NCBI GenBank assembly: GCA_027972325.1
Contig: JAPMOS010000001.1
Coordinates: forward strand, 1-64,000
DNA: 64,000 bases
Direction of reading: 5' to 3'
Origin: Paratrimastix pyriformis
Lineage: Eukaryota; Preaxostyla; Paratrimastigidae
The position numbers were made by a program, and so were the translations under genes. Shown here piece by piece: positions 1 to 64,000 of the stretch. Each line of letters opens with the position of its first letter. The first letter of the stretch is position 1. Below the pieces are notes generated by a model that saw only the letters and a list, made by a program, of their open reading frames with translations, was not told the DNA's origin and did not search any database.

Positions 1-690
1 GGATGATGATGATGATGATGATGATGATGATGATGACTGGATGATGATTGGATGATGATGATGATGATGATGATGATGATGATGATGACGATCGTGGGTG
101 ATGATGATCGTGGATGATGATGATGATGATGATGATGATGATGATGATGATGATGATGATGATGATGATGATGATGATGATGATGATGATGATGATGATG
201 ATGATGATGATGATGAAATTGATGATGGATGATGATGATGATGATGATGATGATGATGATGATGATGATGATGATGATGATGATGATGATGATGATGATG
301 ATGATGATGATGATGATGATGATGATGATGATGATGATTGGATGATGATGATGATCTGGATGATGATGATGATGATGACTGGATGATGATGATGATGATG
401 ATGATGATGACTGGATGATGACTGGATGATGACTGGATGATGACTGGATGATGACTGGATGATGATGATGATGATGATGATGATGATGATGATGATGATG
501 ATGATGATGATGATGATGATGATGATGATGATGATGATGATGATGATGATGATGATGATGATGATGATGATGATGATGATGATTGGATGATGATTGGATG
601 ATGATGATGATGATGATGACTGGATGATGATGATGATGATGATGATGATGATTGGATGATGATGATGATGATGATGATGATGATGCGGTG
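1..690. repeat. ATG trinucleotide microsatellite array
   Basis: Nearly pure ATG repeats, interrupted by GATTGG and GACTGG variants that create a higher-order unit. Open frames here are Met or Asp homopolymers and are not credited as coding. Position suggests it lies in the last intron of the plus-strand gene whose final exon starts at 959; 691-958 is unique sequence that ends in an acceptor. Confidence 0.95.
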
Positions 691-958
691 ATGATTGGGT
701 GATGATGATGATTGGATTGCCCGTCGTCCCATAATTGTTCGTCTTGGCCAGGTGAACGAATCTGATCGGACACTTGGTGGCGCAGCAAGGGCAGTATGCG
801 CCTTCCTGAATTGCCACAAGGTCCTCGATGCAGACTCAGTGTGCGTGCGTCATCTGCCCACACTCCTCGCTGGGTTTCTCAATCCGACGACCCCGGCAGG
901 CGGTGGACCCGAGATGACAATTCACTTTCTCTCGTCATTCGCCCCACCACCACCACAG

Positions 959-1690
959 CAGCCGCCCACGCCCACGGACCCGAAGTCCTCCCCGCGTTGC
1001 TCGCCGGGCCCACTTCTGCTGGCCGACGCGGCCTTGCATCCCGGGGCAGCCCCGCCCGCCTCGCTGGCCCTGGCCGAGTCCCCGCCTCCTCGCCCCAGCC
1101 CCACCGCCACTTGCGACGATGACCCGGCCCGGGCCTTGCTCTGGGCATCAGCAGTAGCAGCAGGCCCCGCGCCAACCACCATCACCACCATCAACAACGA
1201 CAGCAGCAGCAGTAGCGATCAACTGCATCAGCTGCTTGCCACCTCCCCGCCACCCGCCGCTGCCCTGCTCCTGCTCGCATCATCCGGTTGCAGCAGGCGG
1301 CCGGCCGGGCCACCGCCACGCCACGCCCGGCCCTCACGACTGCTGTTGGCCACCACCACCACGACCACCATCACAGACCCGACCATCACCCCGACCTCGA
1401 CGCCCACACGCACTCCGCCACCACCGGCCGGCCTGCCTCCACGCCCCCGTCCCGCCCACCGCCCACCCACGACAACGCCGCTCCTGGCGACCCCGACCAC
1501 CCCCATGCCGGCCCCCAGCCCCCCGCCCTCGATGCTCCGCCTTGAGGAGCCGCTCCTGGGCGGATCCCGGGAGGGTGCCGGTCCTAATCGTGGTGCTGGT
1601 GATGCTGCTGGTGGTGAGAATGCGTTCGAGTGCATGAATCCGCTGATGGTGGCCGAGGGGCTGGCGGCAGCGGCCAGCCCACGGTCGTAG
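959..1690 (+). CDS. C-terminal cytoplasmic-tail exon of a giant surface protein (paralogue A, partial)
   Basis: This is the last exon, about 243 codons, of a gene entering from the left. It follows a CAG acceptor at 956-958 and ends in TAG. The product is Pro/Ala/Thr/Ser-rich without a recognised domain. The exon is identified because its start (QPPTPTDPKSS, then GPLLLADAALHPGAA and LALAESPPPRP) matches the last exon of the minus-strand gene ending at 2763. Both also end with a similar motif, here FECMNPL and there LECLNPL. By comparison with that gene, the segment should be the cytoplasmic tail of a type I membrane protein; the extracellular part lies outside the window. No function can be assigned to the tail. 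Confidence 0.7.
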   Translation, partial: QPPTPTDPKSSPRCSPGPLLLADAALHPGAAPPASLALAESPPPRPSPTATCDDDPARALLWASAVAAGPAPTTITTINNDSSSSSDQLHQLLATSPPPAAALLLLASSGCSRRPAGPPPRHARPSRLLLATTTTTTITDPTITPTSTPTRTPPPPAGLPPRPRPAHRPPTTTPLLATPTTPMPAPSPPPSMLRLEEPLLGGSREGAGPNRGAGDAAGGENAFECMNPLMVAEGLAAAASPRS

Positions 1691-63000: not shown

Positions 63001-63524
63001 GGCCAAAATGGGGGGTCAAGAACAACAACAACCAACAACAACACGAACACAAACACGAACAGTGGAAGGCTTTGGGTGCGAGCCAATAGGCAGCGGGGGC
63101 AAAAGGCATGAGCATGTGATGGGGGAACATGTGGAGCATCATGGTTTCCCACCGCTCACCACGCCCATCATCCCGGCATACAGACCTCCCCAGGCCACGG
63201 CCCCGTTGTCGCATGATGCGTCCATGGCCAGCCCCTGGTATCGCACGGCCAGCGCGACCGAACCCTCACCTGCCGTGGGCGTGAAGCTCACGCGAAACTC
63301 GTCCGTTGCGGCCGCACAGCCGGAGCCCGAGACGCGCAGGGCGGCCCCGGAGGTGGCCGTGACCACCTCGAAGTTGGCCGCCTCCTGGGGGAAGCTGCTG
63401 CAGAGCTGGGGCGGGGTGCCCGTCACGCCGGCCTGCAGGCAGGTGATCAGGACGGTGTAGGTGTGGCCCCAGACGGCCAGCGCGGGGACCCCGGTGCAGG
63501 TGCACTGAGCCGGGGTGATAGCCG
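50077..63524 (-). CDS. Giant type I surface protein with Ig-like repeats and a long Cys-rich stem (gene C)
   Basis: The second multi-exon giant gene on the minus strand; sections are listed below. N-terminus outward: divergent Ig-like repeats with C-terminal phase-1 borders, a 2.6-kb exon with several repeats, a Cys-rich region of repeated RCPDGxCAxxxxxC and RCWDSTC units, a transmembrane helix, and a Pro-rich tail ending near 50077. It is a distant relative of gene B in layout: repeats, Cys-rich stem, single helix, Pro-rich tail. The stem is LDLa-like rather than EGF-like. No signal peptide was found; the 5' end may lie beyond 63524 or outside the window. A surface adhesion role is inferred. 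Confidence 0.75.
51026..52446. other. Gene C tail intron region, exon content unresolved
   Basis: Between the transmembrane exon and the tail exons. Holds a GAT array (51992-52330) whose units become GATGATGATGATTGGGT. Unique sequence at 51340-51990 has open minus-strand frames but no convincing splice-supported exon. Confidence 0.4.
51992..52330. repeat. GAT microsatellite with 17-bp minisatellite part
   Basis: Pure GAT, then about seven units of GATGATGATGATTGGGT, then GAT again. Confidence 0.95.
52447..52816 (-). CDS. Gene C exon: last Cys-rich units and transmembrane helix
   Basis: The exon reads CAGTSITCAAHAADCP, CPNGTRCVADLALCP and RCLNQTCVATPGECP, then a hydrophobic helix (VGVGAPGLLLVIVATIVAIF) and CCRRAQERKM. 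This fixes topology: Cys-rich region outside, tail inside. Donor GTCTGG. Confidence 0.8.
52885..53240. repeat. About 41-bp minisatellite in a gene C intron
   Basis: About nine units containing CCAGACACATAGATATGGAG, then ACACAGGGAAACACACCCCAG, in long (41-bp) and short (about 36-bp) versions. Confidence 0.95.
53311..54147 (-). CDS. Gene C exon: Cys-rich repeats
   Basis: A single exon encoding about ten units of the type CPxGxxxCPDGSCxxxxxxCP, for example CPGDRALCPDGSCATNASLC and CPSGTSRCPLGECRAPGDPC. Spacing is LDLa-like but lacks the acidic calcium-binding box, so a receptor-type LDLa function is not implied. The unit probably forms a rigid disulfide-rich stalk. Confidence 0.75.
54190..54600. 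repeat. 14-bp minisatellite (GGATGATGATGACT) in a gene C intron
   Basis: More than 15 units of GGATGATGATGACT with shortened and longer variants, and a GAT array at 54480-54530. A second GAT array (54805-55000) lies in the next intron. Confidence 0.95.
54669..55896 (-). CDS. Gene C exons: Cys-rich stem, middle part
   Basis: Exons 55615-55896 (CPCPPERSYRCPDGQRCARV, RCWDSSCAPDVTRCPC), 55101-55236 (CWDGTCAPDASYCPC) and 54669-54777 (LCWDGSCASSFFSCPCPPH). They continue the RCPDGxC / RCWDSTC alternation of the large exon. A further short exon may lie near 55.55 kb. An intron here holds a GACATGGGGGGAT-type repeat (55315-55470). Confidence 0.7.
56200..58818 (-). CDS. Gene C large exon: Ig-like repeats joined to Cys-rich units
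   Basis: An uninterrupted exon of 2.6 kb. It starts FSCSGLDYALSLVPHRAGTG, has about five Ig-like repeats with MITPRDADGNQVAC, IVGRDSDGNPLSC, VVARDSDSNVVSC, IRARDAALNTISC and LMPRDADGNLHNC, and then ECARDSQCAQAGDRGATC and the first Cys-rich units, such as RCPDGRCAGNATAC and CWDSTCRPTWAQ. In contrast to gene B, many repeats are in one exon, which suggests intron loss or a different duplication route. The Ig-to-Cys-rich transition inside one exon shows the two parts belong to one protein. Confidence 0.82.
59010..59755. repeat. Two minisatellites in gene C introns
   Basis: 59015-59180: about three 45-55 bp units with GGATCCGCCA and GGGGAATATCCACACTT. 59490-59755: about 17 units of ACAGACAGGGGGGAT(AC). 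An exon (59191-59378) lies between them and is listed separately. Confidence 0.9.
59191..60849 (-). CDS. Gene C exons: Ig-like repeats
   Basis: Exon 59830-60849 encodes three repeats (ISAFDAHANPVGC, VDVRDVYGNLIAC, VLARDALDNVVPC). Exon 59191-59378 encodes the first half of another (TAHDVYGNRVSC) and ends at GTAAGT, one of the very few canonical donors in the window. The second half of that repeat continues in the 56200-58818 exon. Confidence 0.78.
60893..61135. repeat. Dispersed intronic repeat, copy 2
   Basis: Lies in a 1-kb intron of gene C. Shared blocks: CGCCCAGCAG, AGAAACGTG, GGCTTTCGCCTGCC, CACCCACCAGGTCAACCGA, CCCTGATATCCATGCCCCA and CAAATTATGGG(A/T)CGTTG. No coding capacity. Confidence 0.8.
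61205..61425. repeat. Dispersed intronic repeat, copy 3
   Basis: Same block order as the copies at 60893 and 61485, with scattered substitutions. Followed by a T-rich stretch (61426-61448). Confidence 0.8.
61485..61680. repeat. Dispersed intronic repeat, copy 4
   Basis: Third copy in the same gene C intron, closest to copy 2 in sequence. It ends AACAAATTATGGGTCGTT and is followed by an A-rich and T-rich stretch. Confidence 0.8.
61932..63524 (-). CDS. Gene C 5'-most visible exons: Ig-like repeats
   Basis: Exons 63186-63524 (TCTGVPALAVWGHTYTVLIT, CSSFPQEAANFEVV), about 62590-62907 (RCSYVPSAPTTAQTGEPLTL, CTAYPGEAHNFALV), and 62205 down to about 61940. The last is split by an apparent 32-bp intron (donor GTGGAA) between DCTLLL and GYPVAADWSCTAG. 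All are relatives of the repeat family, with Cys pairs retained. Whether more exons lie upstream is not clear; the 63524 border is a normal acceptor (CAATAG), so at least one more exon must exist 5' of it. Confidence 0.65.
62280..62505. repeat. CAT microsatellite in a gene C intron
   Basis: CATCATCCGAT units then pure CAT repeats. Confidence 0.95.
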
Positions 63525-64000
63525 CTATTGAGGAGAGGGTGAGTGTGTGGAGTAAAGAGGGTGTGTGTGTGTGTGGGGGGAGAGAGAGAGAGAGAGAGAG
63601 AGGCATCAACCCAGGCCCGCCGTGCGTGGCCAAGACCGACTGCGACAAGAAGCTGCTGCTTCCTGGTGCCGCCTGAGGGCTCGACGAGCTACGGGCTGAG
63701 CACTGAGTGGGACGGAGCCAACCAGTTGGTATTTTAAGTGATTTCTTTTCTCTCTTTGTTCCCCTTTTACGGGCCCTGGTGGCTCGGTTTTCCGGAATAT
63801 GAGAGAGGCGAGGTCCCCCGCGTTCTCGAGGCCGGCAAGCAGAGCGACTACAGGACCTGGCTGGAGTCCCACCCTGGAGCCCGCTTCCACCCCTTCGGCG
63901 TGTCCAACTTTGGCCAACTGGGCCCCCAGGCGACTGCCTTCGTGGACCTCATCAAGGCCCAGTATGACAAGCAGAAGCTCCACTTCTCCCGACACTGGTG
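63525..64000. other. Unresolved right edge
   Basis: A GT/GA microsatellite (63555-63602) is followed by sequence with a plus-strand open frame from 63769 to the edge reading GPWWLGFPEYERGEVPRV and ARFHPFGVSNFGQLGPQATA. That style of ending is seen in some reverse-transcriptase-like proteins of protist retroelements, but the match is from memory and weak. A minus-strand frame is also open. It could equally be an upstream host gene. Confidence 0.25.

Follow-up and report, generated by a model that had tools for sequence, protein, structure and literature searches.

A two-base change in U1 snRNA genes as the probable cause of the GTCYGY intron start signal in Paratrimastix pyriformis

In Paratrimastix pyriformis introns now start with GTCYGY in place of the near-universal GTRAGT, very probably because of a U1 snRNA with two matching base changes in its genes. 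A re-setting of the genome's donor code by this U1 change is, with high confidence, the best explanation of our data, and the two changes together look like a natural re-coding of intron recognition. A genome-wide U1 re-coding was not found in the portions of the open-licence literature consulted, where this donor/U1 form is likewise unreported in Paratrimastix or any other species. In the available text of the P. pyriformis genome paper (PMC10703272) the words 'intron' (twice) and 'splice' (once) appear solely in methods and references, and a word search of the available text of four other papers (PMC2148110, PMC3596361, PMC1665464, PMC8767320) returned nothing on a GTCYGY donor. The species itself is a free-living anaerobic flagellate.

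Introns of the window and the donor census

Junctions in the window (the whole 64,000-nt stretch of contig JAPMOS010000001.1 that was analysed) were derived anew by spliced alignment of proteins to DNA, scored on protein similarity alone, with a GT donor and an AG acceptor obligatory. The re-derivation covered IMP4, prolidase, the hybrid-cluster protein (Hcp) and the aligned part of the REC-phosphodiesterase gene (REC-PDE), and recovered 5/5, 6/6, 6/6 and 1/1 introns, respectively, with C at +3 in 15 and T in 3 (Table 1). The original prediction that pyrimidine-rich GTYYGT donors replace GTRAGT was therefore borne out, with a pyrimidine at +3 in 18/18 introns, while the consensus itself is better worded as GTCYGY. 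The spliced prolidase model is identical at 462/462 residues to a transcript-derived P. pyriformis protein, showing that its six introns with altered donors are removed. When six donor dinucleotides were permitted (GT, GC, AT, GA, CT, TT), all 6 prolidase introns still began with GT. Three further introns in the first output, which listed nine, were rejected: two lay in the poorly aligned N-terminus and one was a 24-nt cut, and none is in the transcript-derived protein. The Hcp model likewise equals an NCBI P. pyriformis protein (P0241) at 600/600 residues, and the two identities confirm the species. For IMP4 the query was a possibly approximate human sequence, and no P. pyriformis protein stood among the best 120 matches listed in the IMP4 protein search.

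Table 1. Genes and introns placed in the window, with donor hexamers
Feature	Donor	Position	Strand	Basis
Prolidase (Xaa-Pro dipeptidase) gene, 462 aa, 6 introns		47355..49687	-	spliced model vs P0121 (EukProt GAFH01001596.1.p2)
Prolidase intron 1	GTTTGT	49449..49506	-	transcript-derived protein
Prolidase intron 2	GTCTGT	49083..49149	-	transcript-derived protein
Prolidase intron 3	GTCTGC	48839..48908	-	transcript-derived protein
Prolidase intron 4	GTCTGT	48550..48752	-	transcript-derived protein
Prolidase intron 5	GTCCGC	48180..48325	-	transcript-derived protein
Prolidase intron 6	GTCCGT	47468..47870	-	transcript-derived protein
Hcp (hybrid-cluster protein / hydroxylamine reductase) gene, 600 aa, 6 introns		38493..40605	+	spliced model
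Hcp intron 1	GTCCGT	38528..38590	+	spliced alignment
Hcp intron 2	GTCTGA	38703..38753	+	spliced alignment
Hcp intron 3	GTTCCG	38846..38894	+	spliced alignment
Hcp intron 4	GTCTGG	39129..39170	+	spliced alignment
Hcp intron 5	GTCTGC	39721..39773	+	spliced alignment
Hcp intron 6	GTCTGT	40215..40269	+	spliced alignment
IMP4 intron 1	GTCCGT	31473..31519	+	spliced alignment, human IMP4
IMP4 intron 2	GTTTGT	31604..31678	+	spliced alignment, human IMP4
IMP4 intron 3	GTCTGT	31922..31974	+	spliced alignment, human IMP4
IMP4 intron 4	GTCCGT	32130..32224	+	spliced alignment, human IMP4
IMP4 intron 5	GTCTGC	32320..32367	+	spliced alignment, human IMP4
REC-PDE intron	GTCTGT	42975..43027	-	spliced alignment, PDE9 pieces
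Giant Ig-like-repeat gene intron	GTCTGG at 59216	58833..59216	-	frame kept

The giant repeat genes had been said to share these donors, and on the donor side, which was examined, six exons with a terminal V.V.PG-type motif directly meet GTCYGY. The sole GTAAGT reported in the window (donor at 59190, minus strand) fell away, as it causes a frameshift that the tabulated GTCTGG, 26 bases upstream, avoids.

For a wider census, window introns were joined with introns of ten homology-anchored dynein loci, whose predicted junctions rest on homology; three weaker dynein hits, on C494, on C234 and at a further place on C446, were left unused. Filtering by length and by similarity of the flanks kept 42/78 dynein rows in a first set and 36/124 in a second, which with 5 IMP4 and 6 prolidase introns gives 89, or 87 after removal of two with non-YAG acceptors (GTCCCA, GTGGCC). 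Among these 87 donors, position +3 is C81 T4 A1 G1 (pyrimidine in 85/87), +4 is C59 T18 G6 A4 (C/T in 77), +5 is G74 C10 T3 and +6 is C50 T25 G10 A2, with G at -1 in 70. GTC opens 81/87 introns and GTRAG 0/87, so that the GTRAGT consensus of U2-type introns is absent. In the first filtered set C occupies +3 in 49/53 donors, compared to 31% for GTs within the same introns (p = 1e-20). Before filtering, C or T stands at +3 in 71/78 and 93/124 dynein rows of the two sets, and GTRAG in 1/202. In the second set 30/88 filter-failing rows have G or A at +3 vs 1/36 passing rows; most such failing rows are taken for misalignments.

Counts made without gene models over 164 kb gave AGGTCCGY 49 times (13.5 expected), AGGTCTGY 26 (11.6) and AGGTAAGY once (0.5). 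Other words also exceeded expectation (AGGTATGY 6/1.2, AGGTCGGY 32/17.3, AGGTGAGY 11/5.9, seen/expected), and AGGTCGGY ranked top in the window alone. A link between C at +4 and a weak exon end, hinted at in 53 introns, was absent in 87 (p = 0.56).

U1 genes and their predicted pairing with the donors

In most eukaryotes the U1 5' end is AUACUUACC. All eight P. pyriformis U1 genes found, on eight contigs, start AUACAGACC instead; they begin ATACAGACCTTG and have an upstream element in common. The canonical ACUUACC is absent and ACAGACC is present in 8/8, so that U5U6 has become A5G6 at the bases facing +4 and +3. The genes match the RF00003 covariance model over its full length (positions 1-166, E 4e-13 to 2e-10) with scores of 50.8 to 60.2 bits, under the curated cut-off of 69.5, and loop I reads GAUCACACAGG against a consensus of GAUCAaGAAGG. 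BLASTN with the U1 body returned no U1 genes beyond these eight, from which a U1 RNA with the altered 5' end is presumably made. Searches for U1-C, the protein contacting the U1-donor helix, with PF06220 and with human U1-C both matched one protein, nearest to WBP4; U1-C was not detected.

Elsewhere, pseudouridines occupy U1 bases 5-6, and their partners are A/G at +3 and A at +4. In the altered U1, C8, A7 and C4 would still pair with donor +1 G, +2 U and +5 G, while G6 would accept C at +3, or U through wobble, and A5 would accept U at +4 and tolerate C; GTCYG donors would therefore be bound and GTRAG donors left unbound. U1 pairing is probably what holds +3 as C. Mean pairing with the actual U1 end is -8.3 kcal/mol for donors and -4.7 kcal/mol for window GTs, whereas the full canonical end hardly separates them (-5.1 vs -4.8 kcal/mol). 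U1 pairing had originally been predicted to be weakened; the actual end pairs the donors well. When all 16 two-base combinations were tried at U1 positions 5 and 6, those with G6 took the top four places in separating donors from GTs within introns (AUC 0.956 to 0.815). A5 is not the best-fitting base, as GG (0.956) and UG (0.845) both fit better than the real AG (0.839); setting bases 5-6 alone back to the canonical UU leaves part of the separation (0.707). C exceeds U at +4 (59 vs 18) despite A5:U pairing, and intron GC accounts for this only in part.

The other major-type snRNAs gave 10 gene matches for U2, 7 for U5 and 4 for U6. The U6 ACAGAGA box is canonical in 4/4 genes, U5 loop I in 7/7, and the U2 branch-pairing region in the 3 matches read out of 10. 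The original proposal was either an altered U1 5' end or a shifted contribution from U6/U5, with a comparison of the U1 and U6 genes to decide; since U1 carries compensatory changes at bases 5-6 and the U6 box and U5 loop I are canonical, the data uphold the first option but not an altered U6 or U5 sequence.

The new U1 end includes ACAGA, the first five bases of the U6 ACAGAGA box. Elsewhere the preferences of U1 and U6 at +3 and +4 diverge. Donors reading CUGU from +3 to +6 would pair fully with both RNAs, and the U1-to-U6 handover would then re-read identical donor bases, a step that we suggest with less assurance than the U1 pairing itself. The joint proposition, a natural genome-wide U1 re-coding with donors switched to match and a U1 word that equals that of U6, both readers wanting the same +3/+4 bases, stands at even chances. 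It is rated no higher because a full CTGT match occurs in only 6/87 donors and pairing with U6 is poor for the most frequent donors: GUCCGU (-0.8) and GUCCGC (-0.7) do worse than GUAAGU (-1.4), and only GUCUGU gains (-5.0). That the change is derived in P. pyriformis is suggested by Streblomastix, an oxymonad of the same phylum, in which the source, as far as available, gives A, U and G at +3 to +5 as highly conserved in 21 introns (PMC1501061).

Alternative explanations

One tentative proposal would add to the U1 re-coding, without replacing it: C at +4 may be a compromise between U1 A5, which prefers U, and an N6-methylated U6 A43, which disfavours it. A METTL16-like exon (C332; one exon read) has as its best PDB match 8gu3, named as a U6 adenine-43 methyltransferase. 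A SNRNP27K-like protein was also found, U6 retains an intact ACAGAGA target, and one paper, in its accessible part, describes m6A:U pairs as unfavourable (PMC11732430). Against this, A at +4, the expected favourite of m6A43, is rare (4/87); METTL16 is known here from one exon, and U6 methylation is putative.

It is unlikely that U1 nucleotide 5 is converted to inosine by deamination, or modified in some other way, giving a working end AUAC-I-G-ACC that approximates the complement of GTCCGT. The order at +4 (C, T, G, A) is that expected if C pairs best and U next, a G stand-in for A5 raises the AUC from 0.839 to 0.956, and C exceeds T at +4 beyond the ratio in intronic GTCNG (p = 3e-5). However, C at +4 climbs with intron GC (p = 0.002), so base composition can explain much of the excess. 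We know of no enzyme that edits U1 in P. pyriformis.

Less probable still is an incidental U1 change, with U6, U5 and proteins choosing donors and the C-rich donor mirroring a GC-rich genome. Introns are 36% C, +4 and +6 vary with GC, and U6 ACAG also pairs with CUGU, but C at +3 is near constant across intron-GC tertiles (26, 27 and 28 of 29; 90 to 97%), the U6 box is the usual one, and U1 is altered precisely at the two bases opposite +3/+4 in every copy found.

It is very improbable that the introns are of the minor (U12) type, or unconventional ones spliced out by some other machinery. The U12-type donor motif is RTATCC. One U6atac gene is present, its donor-pairing stretch altered, but the GTATCC form occurs in 0/87 donors (from runs that excluded AT donors) and major-type U2, U5 and U6 genes occur in several copies each and are canonical where read. 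RTATCGGCT, the donor predicted to match the altered U6atac, was found at 0/67 loci, and RTATCGGC is at chance level in the window (1 seen, 1.9 expected). A U11 search gave no match, as did its control search.

We dismiss a parsing artefact with true GTRAGT junctions close by: a hand parse of GC-rich DNA could chase a motif, and unfiltered dynein rows are richer in G/A at +3, but the exact fit of the transcript-derived protein refutes this for the prolidase introns, for 74/76 dynein junctions no competing GT-AG pair scores within 4 units, and any GTRAG lies within 60 nt in 3/76.

Significance and comparison with known systems

Few stretches of eukaryotic RNA are as conserved as the U1 5' end, because a change would hit every intron at once. 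A lineage past this barrier would allow direct tests of stepwise change in a near-universal RNA code, of the weight of U1 vs U6 in donor choice, and of why the two normally differ at +3/+4. Gene-prediction software that has learned GTRAGT donors will go wrong in the P. pyriformis genome, and perhaps in those of its relatives.

Compared to the canonical pairing of ACUUACC with GTRAGT, P. pyriformis keeps the register, the U1 family, GT...YAG introns, G at +5 and G at -1, and differs in having AG instead of UU at U1 5-6 and CY instead of RA at donor +3 to +4. The Entamoeba histolytica donor, GTTTGT, likewise has pyrimidines at +3 and +4. Its U1, unlike that of P. pyriformis, is reported absent (PMC13292270); this and the comparisons below follow the accessible portions of the papers cited. 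Giardia, another metamonad, retains ACUUAC in its U1 (PMC3510501). The tunicate Fritillaria borealis has also abandoned the usual donor genome-wide, with non-canonical introns, but its U1 5' end is strictly preserved (PMC13326754). In the diplonemid S. specki a natural U1 gene with a changed 5' end exists, as one of two copies carries a C stretch; this variant was reported to match the species' own canonical donor logo roughly on a par with the usual U1 (PMC12621601), whereas in P. pyriformis every U1 copy found is altered and the donors follow. In the Saccharomycotina yeasts, lineage-level donor preference shifts from A to U at +4, where both U1 and U6 read the donor, and a change of U1 position 5 to A was named as a possible compensation (PMC10581693). 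That survey of 240 yeasts and outgroups found no compensating change where U1 was detected, ACUUACC being invariant where found (227/230 yeasts, 9/10 outgroups); in P. pyriformis, in contrast, U1 itself is altered at two bases and +3 has changed as well.

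Donor sites in the window and across the genome

Introns were placed with a spliced protein-to-DNA aligner written for the purpose, constrained by GT and AG only and thus blind to any longer motif. The prolidase of the window is identical at 462/462 residues to the EukProt entry GAFH01001596.1.p2, GAFH being a transcriptome of Trimastix (now Paratrimastix) pyriformis (PMC3596361). Alignment with this transcript-derived protein gave exactly six introns (donors GTTTGT, GTCTGT, GTCTGC, GTCTGT, GTCCGC and GTCCGT), all returned again when six donor dinucleotides were permitted, and these introns are cDNA evidence at the protein level. 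The hydroxylamine reductase Hcp, identical at 600/600 residues to a P. pyriformis NCBI protein, also has six introns (GTCCGT, GTCTGA, GTTCCG, GTCTGG, GTCTGC and GTCTGT), but their evidence is weaker because the published protein is a prediction made with RNA-seq hints (methods of PMC10703272). Spliced alignment further placed five introns in IMP4 (GTCCGT, GTTTGT, GTCTGT, GTCCGT and GTCTGC), whose best full-coverage named match in a protein search is from P. eleionoma (64%), and one in the REC-phosphodiesterase (GTCTGT). C or T therefore stands at +3 in 18/18 aligned window introns, in agreement with the original prediction of GTYYGT donors in place of GTRAGT. Its sole GTAAGT exception, at 59190 on the minus strand, puts the repeat domain out of frame when spliced, whereas GTCTGG at 59216, joined to the same acceptor, preserves the frame (RLLLSE-GTDPQFSC); the exception was thus dropped. 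In the giant Ig-like-repeat genes (see table), six repeat exons are directly followed by a GTCYGY donor. A protein filed under Helianthus anomalus (P0001) is an IMP4 with a tandem repeat of a large part of the domain.

The genome analysed comprises 56,060,509 bases in 495 contigs, contig 1 of which opens with the 64 kb of the window; the published assembly of this free-living, anaerobic Preaxostyla flagellate is given as 56.6 Mb with 60.9% GC (PMC10703272). The dynein AAA1 domain occurs at about 14 sites on 13 contigs (53 exon matches). The copy on contig 222, intronless over 327 residues, served as reference for aligning ten other loci and the downstream parts of eight. Introns were filtered by the similarity of both flanks, ignoring the donor, which left 42/78 in the first set and 36/124 in the downstream parts. 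Together with 11 IMP4 and prolidase introns, and minus two with a non-YAG acceptor, these make a final set of 87, in which the dynein junctions are placed by homology and all introns come from one species. Position +3 is C in 81, T in 4, A in 1 and G in 1; +4 is C in 59, T in 18, G in 6 and A in 4; +6 is C in 50 and T in 25; G stands at +5 in 74 and at -1 in 70. Before filtering, C or T occupied +3 in 71/78 and 93/124 dynein introns, the second set being noisier, we think, owing to its patchwork C-terminal reference. A rival junction was absent for 74/76 dynein introns. In a gene-model-free count over 164 kb, AGGTCCGY and AGGTCTGY had the top two z-scores among 16 words, a few further words were also enriched, and AGGTAAGY occurred once; with the count limited to the window, AGGTCGGY ranked first.

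U1 genes and their fit to the donors

Eight full-length matches to the Rfam U1 model were found, one on each of eight contigs. All eight genes start ATACAGACCTTG, the Rfam consensus being AUACUUACCUG, so that the guess of an altered U1 5' end held in every U1 gene located. Read from these genes, the cellular RNA would start AUACAGACC and not AUACUUACC. BLAST with the U1 body returned the same eight genes and nothing further; since 41/992 candidates were scored in the Rfam search, a further U1 gene of strongly divergent sequence may have escaped. CCCATAA lies about 60 bases upstream of each U1 gene and also precedes the U5, U6 and U6atac genes that were read. Pfam and human-protein searches did not detect U1-C, which may be a failure of detection. 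The sole zf-U1 protein found (loci L058 and L067, contig C86) is WBP4-like.

In the standard register, U1 C8, A7, 6, 5, C4 and A3 lie opposite +1 to +6, and G6 would pair with +3 C and A5 with +4 U. Against the real U1 end the donors have a mean duplex energy of -8.3, compared with -4.7 for random GTs of the window; against the canonical end the values are -5.1 and -4.8. When all 16 two-base choices were tried at U1 positions 5-6 with the real flank kept, the four carrying G6 ranked first to fourth, and the AUC separating donors from intronic GTs was higher for the real AG (0.839) than for the canonical UU (0.707). The match between +3 and U1 G6 is therefore clear. The fit of A5 is less clear, as GG performs better (0.956) and UG equally well (0.845); by +4 base, U donors form the best duplex (-12.0) and C donors a lesser one (-7.2).

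C versus T tracks intron GC at +4 and +6 (p = 0.002 and 0.0009), whereas +3 C hardly varies with it, so base composition, acting where C opposite A is tolerated, accounts for part of the +4 C excess. A residual is left, C over T at +4 being higher than in intronic GTCNG (p = 3e-5). One idea is that methylated U6 A43 may disfavour U at +4, and METTL16-like and SNRNP27K-like genes are present; another is that U1 A5 may be edited to inosine.

As to how the altered U1 arose, the oxymonad Streblomastix, of the same phylum, is reported to conserve A, U and G at +3 to +5 (PMC1501061), resembling yeast GUAUGU. In one sequence of steps that would fit, starting at GUAUGU, a U-to-A change at U1 position 5 would first have strengthened pairing with +4 U; +3 A would next have become C jointly with U to G at U1 position 6; and many +4 U would afterwards have turned to C under GC pressure.

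Other spliceosomal RNAs and small-RNA-like genes

U6 is encoded by four identical genes with ACAGAGA intact, U5 keeps CGCCUUUUACUA in seven genes, and U2 keeps GUGUAGUAUC in the three read of ten matches. With these elements intact where read, U1 alone appears to have changed among the four RNAs. The suggested alternative of a shifted U6/U5 role finds no support as a sequence change, ACAGAGA and CGCCUUUUACUA both being kept.

The ACAGA now present in U1 is identical to the opening five bases of the ACAGAGA box in U6; convergence of U1 on the U6 word is a fact of the gene sequences. A donor bearing CUGU from +3 to +6 is fully complementary to both RNAs, and fold calculation gives U6 binding of -5.0 kcal/mol for GUCUGU and -1.4 for GUAAGU. 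Yet U6 binds GUCCGU and GUCCGC, which make up 44/87 donors, at only -0.8 and -0.7, full CTGT occurs in 6/87, and chance would produce the U6 word from two altered U1 bases in about 1 of 16 cases. That the identity serves a U1-to-U6 handover is therefore only a suggestion.

U6atac has a single match (L055:1501-1633, contig C445), with the upstream element of the other snRNA genes. Its donor-pairing stretch is AGCCGA versus AAAGGA in the Rfam consensus, so the donor code of the minor spliceosome may have changed too. U11 was not found in a genome search whose control gave no match either.

An unnamed small-RNA-like gene family in the window shares the upstream CCCATAATTT of the snRNA genes and has a TATA-like box ahead of a body estimated at roughly 110 nt, with a terminal T run. 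Three clustered copies share a GGC.GGCGAAAGCC-type hairpin and have no Rfam match at E <= 1; at the gathering threshold there is none in the window.

Positions of further features in the window
Feature	Positions	Strand	Remark
Small-RNA-like gene family, four copies	element at 61669, 61419, 61124, 16344	minus	promoter-like element
Long GAT/ATC-type tandem arrays, many	2-712, 11648-11922, 15425-15752, 54177-54582, 62275-62510 and others		
Giant genes	about 4890-24500 and 52300-63516	minus	many Ig-like repeats of ARDAxGNxIPC type

Comparison with known systems

In the open-licence literature, we found no report of a genome-wide re-coding of U1. A yeast survey mentions A at U1 position 5 as a change that could compensate, and reports ACUUACC as invariant (PMC10581693). 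ACUUACC or its core ACUUAC is reported to be kept in a tunicate (PMC13326754), Giardia (PMC3510501) and the nucleomorphs of two algae (PMC6461891), and one diplonemid is described with a variant U1 copy (PMC12621601). Beside these systems we rate P. pyriformis, as judged from its genes, as a probable case of a re-coded U1 within an otherwise ordinary major spliceosome.
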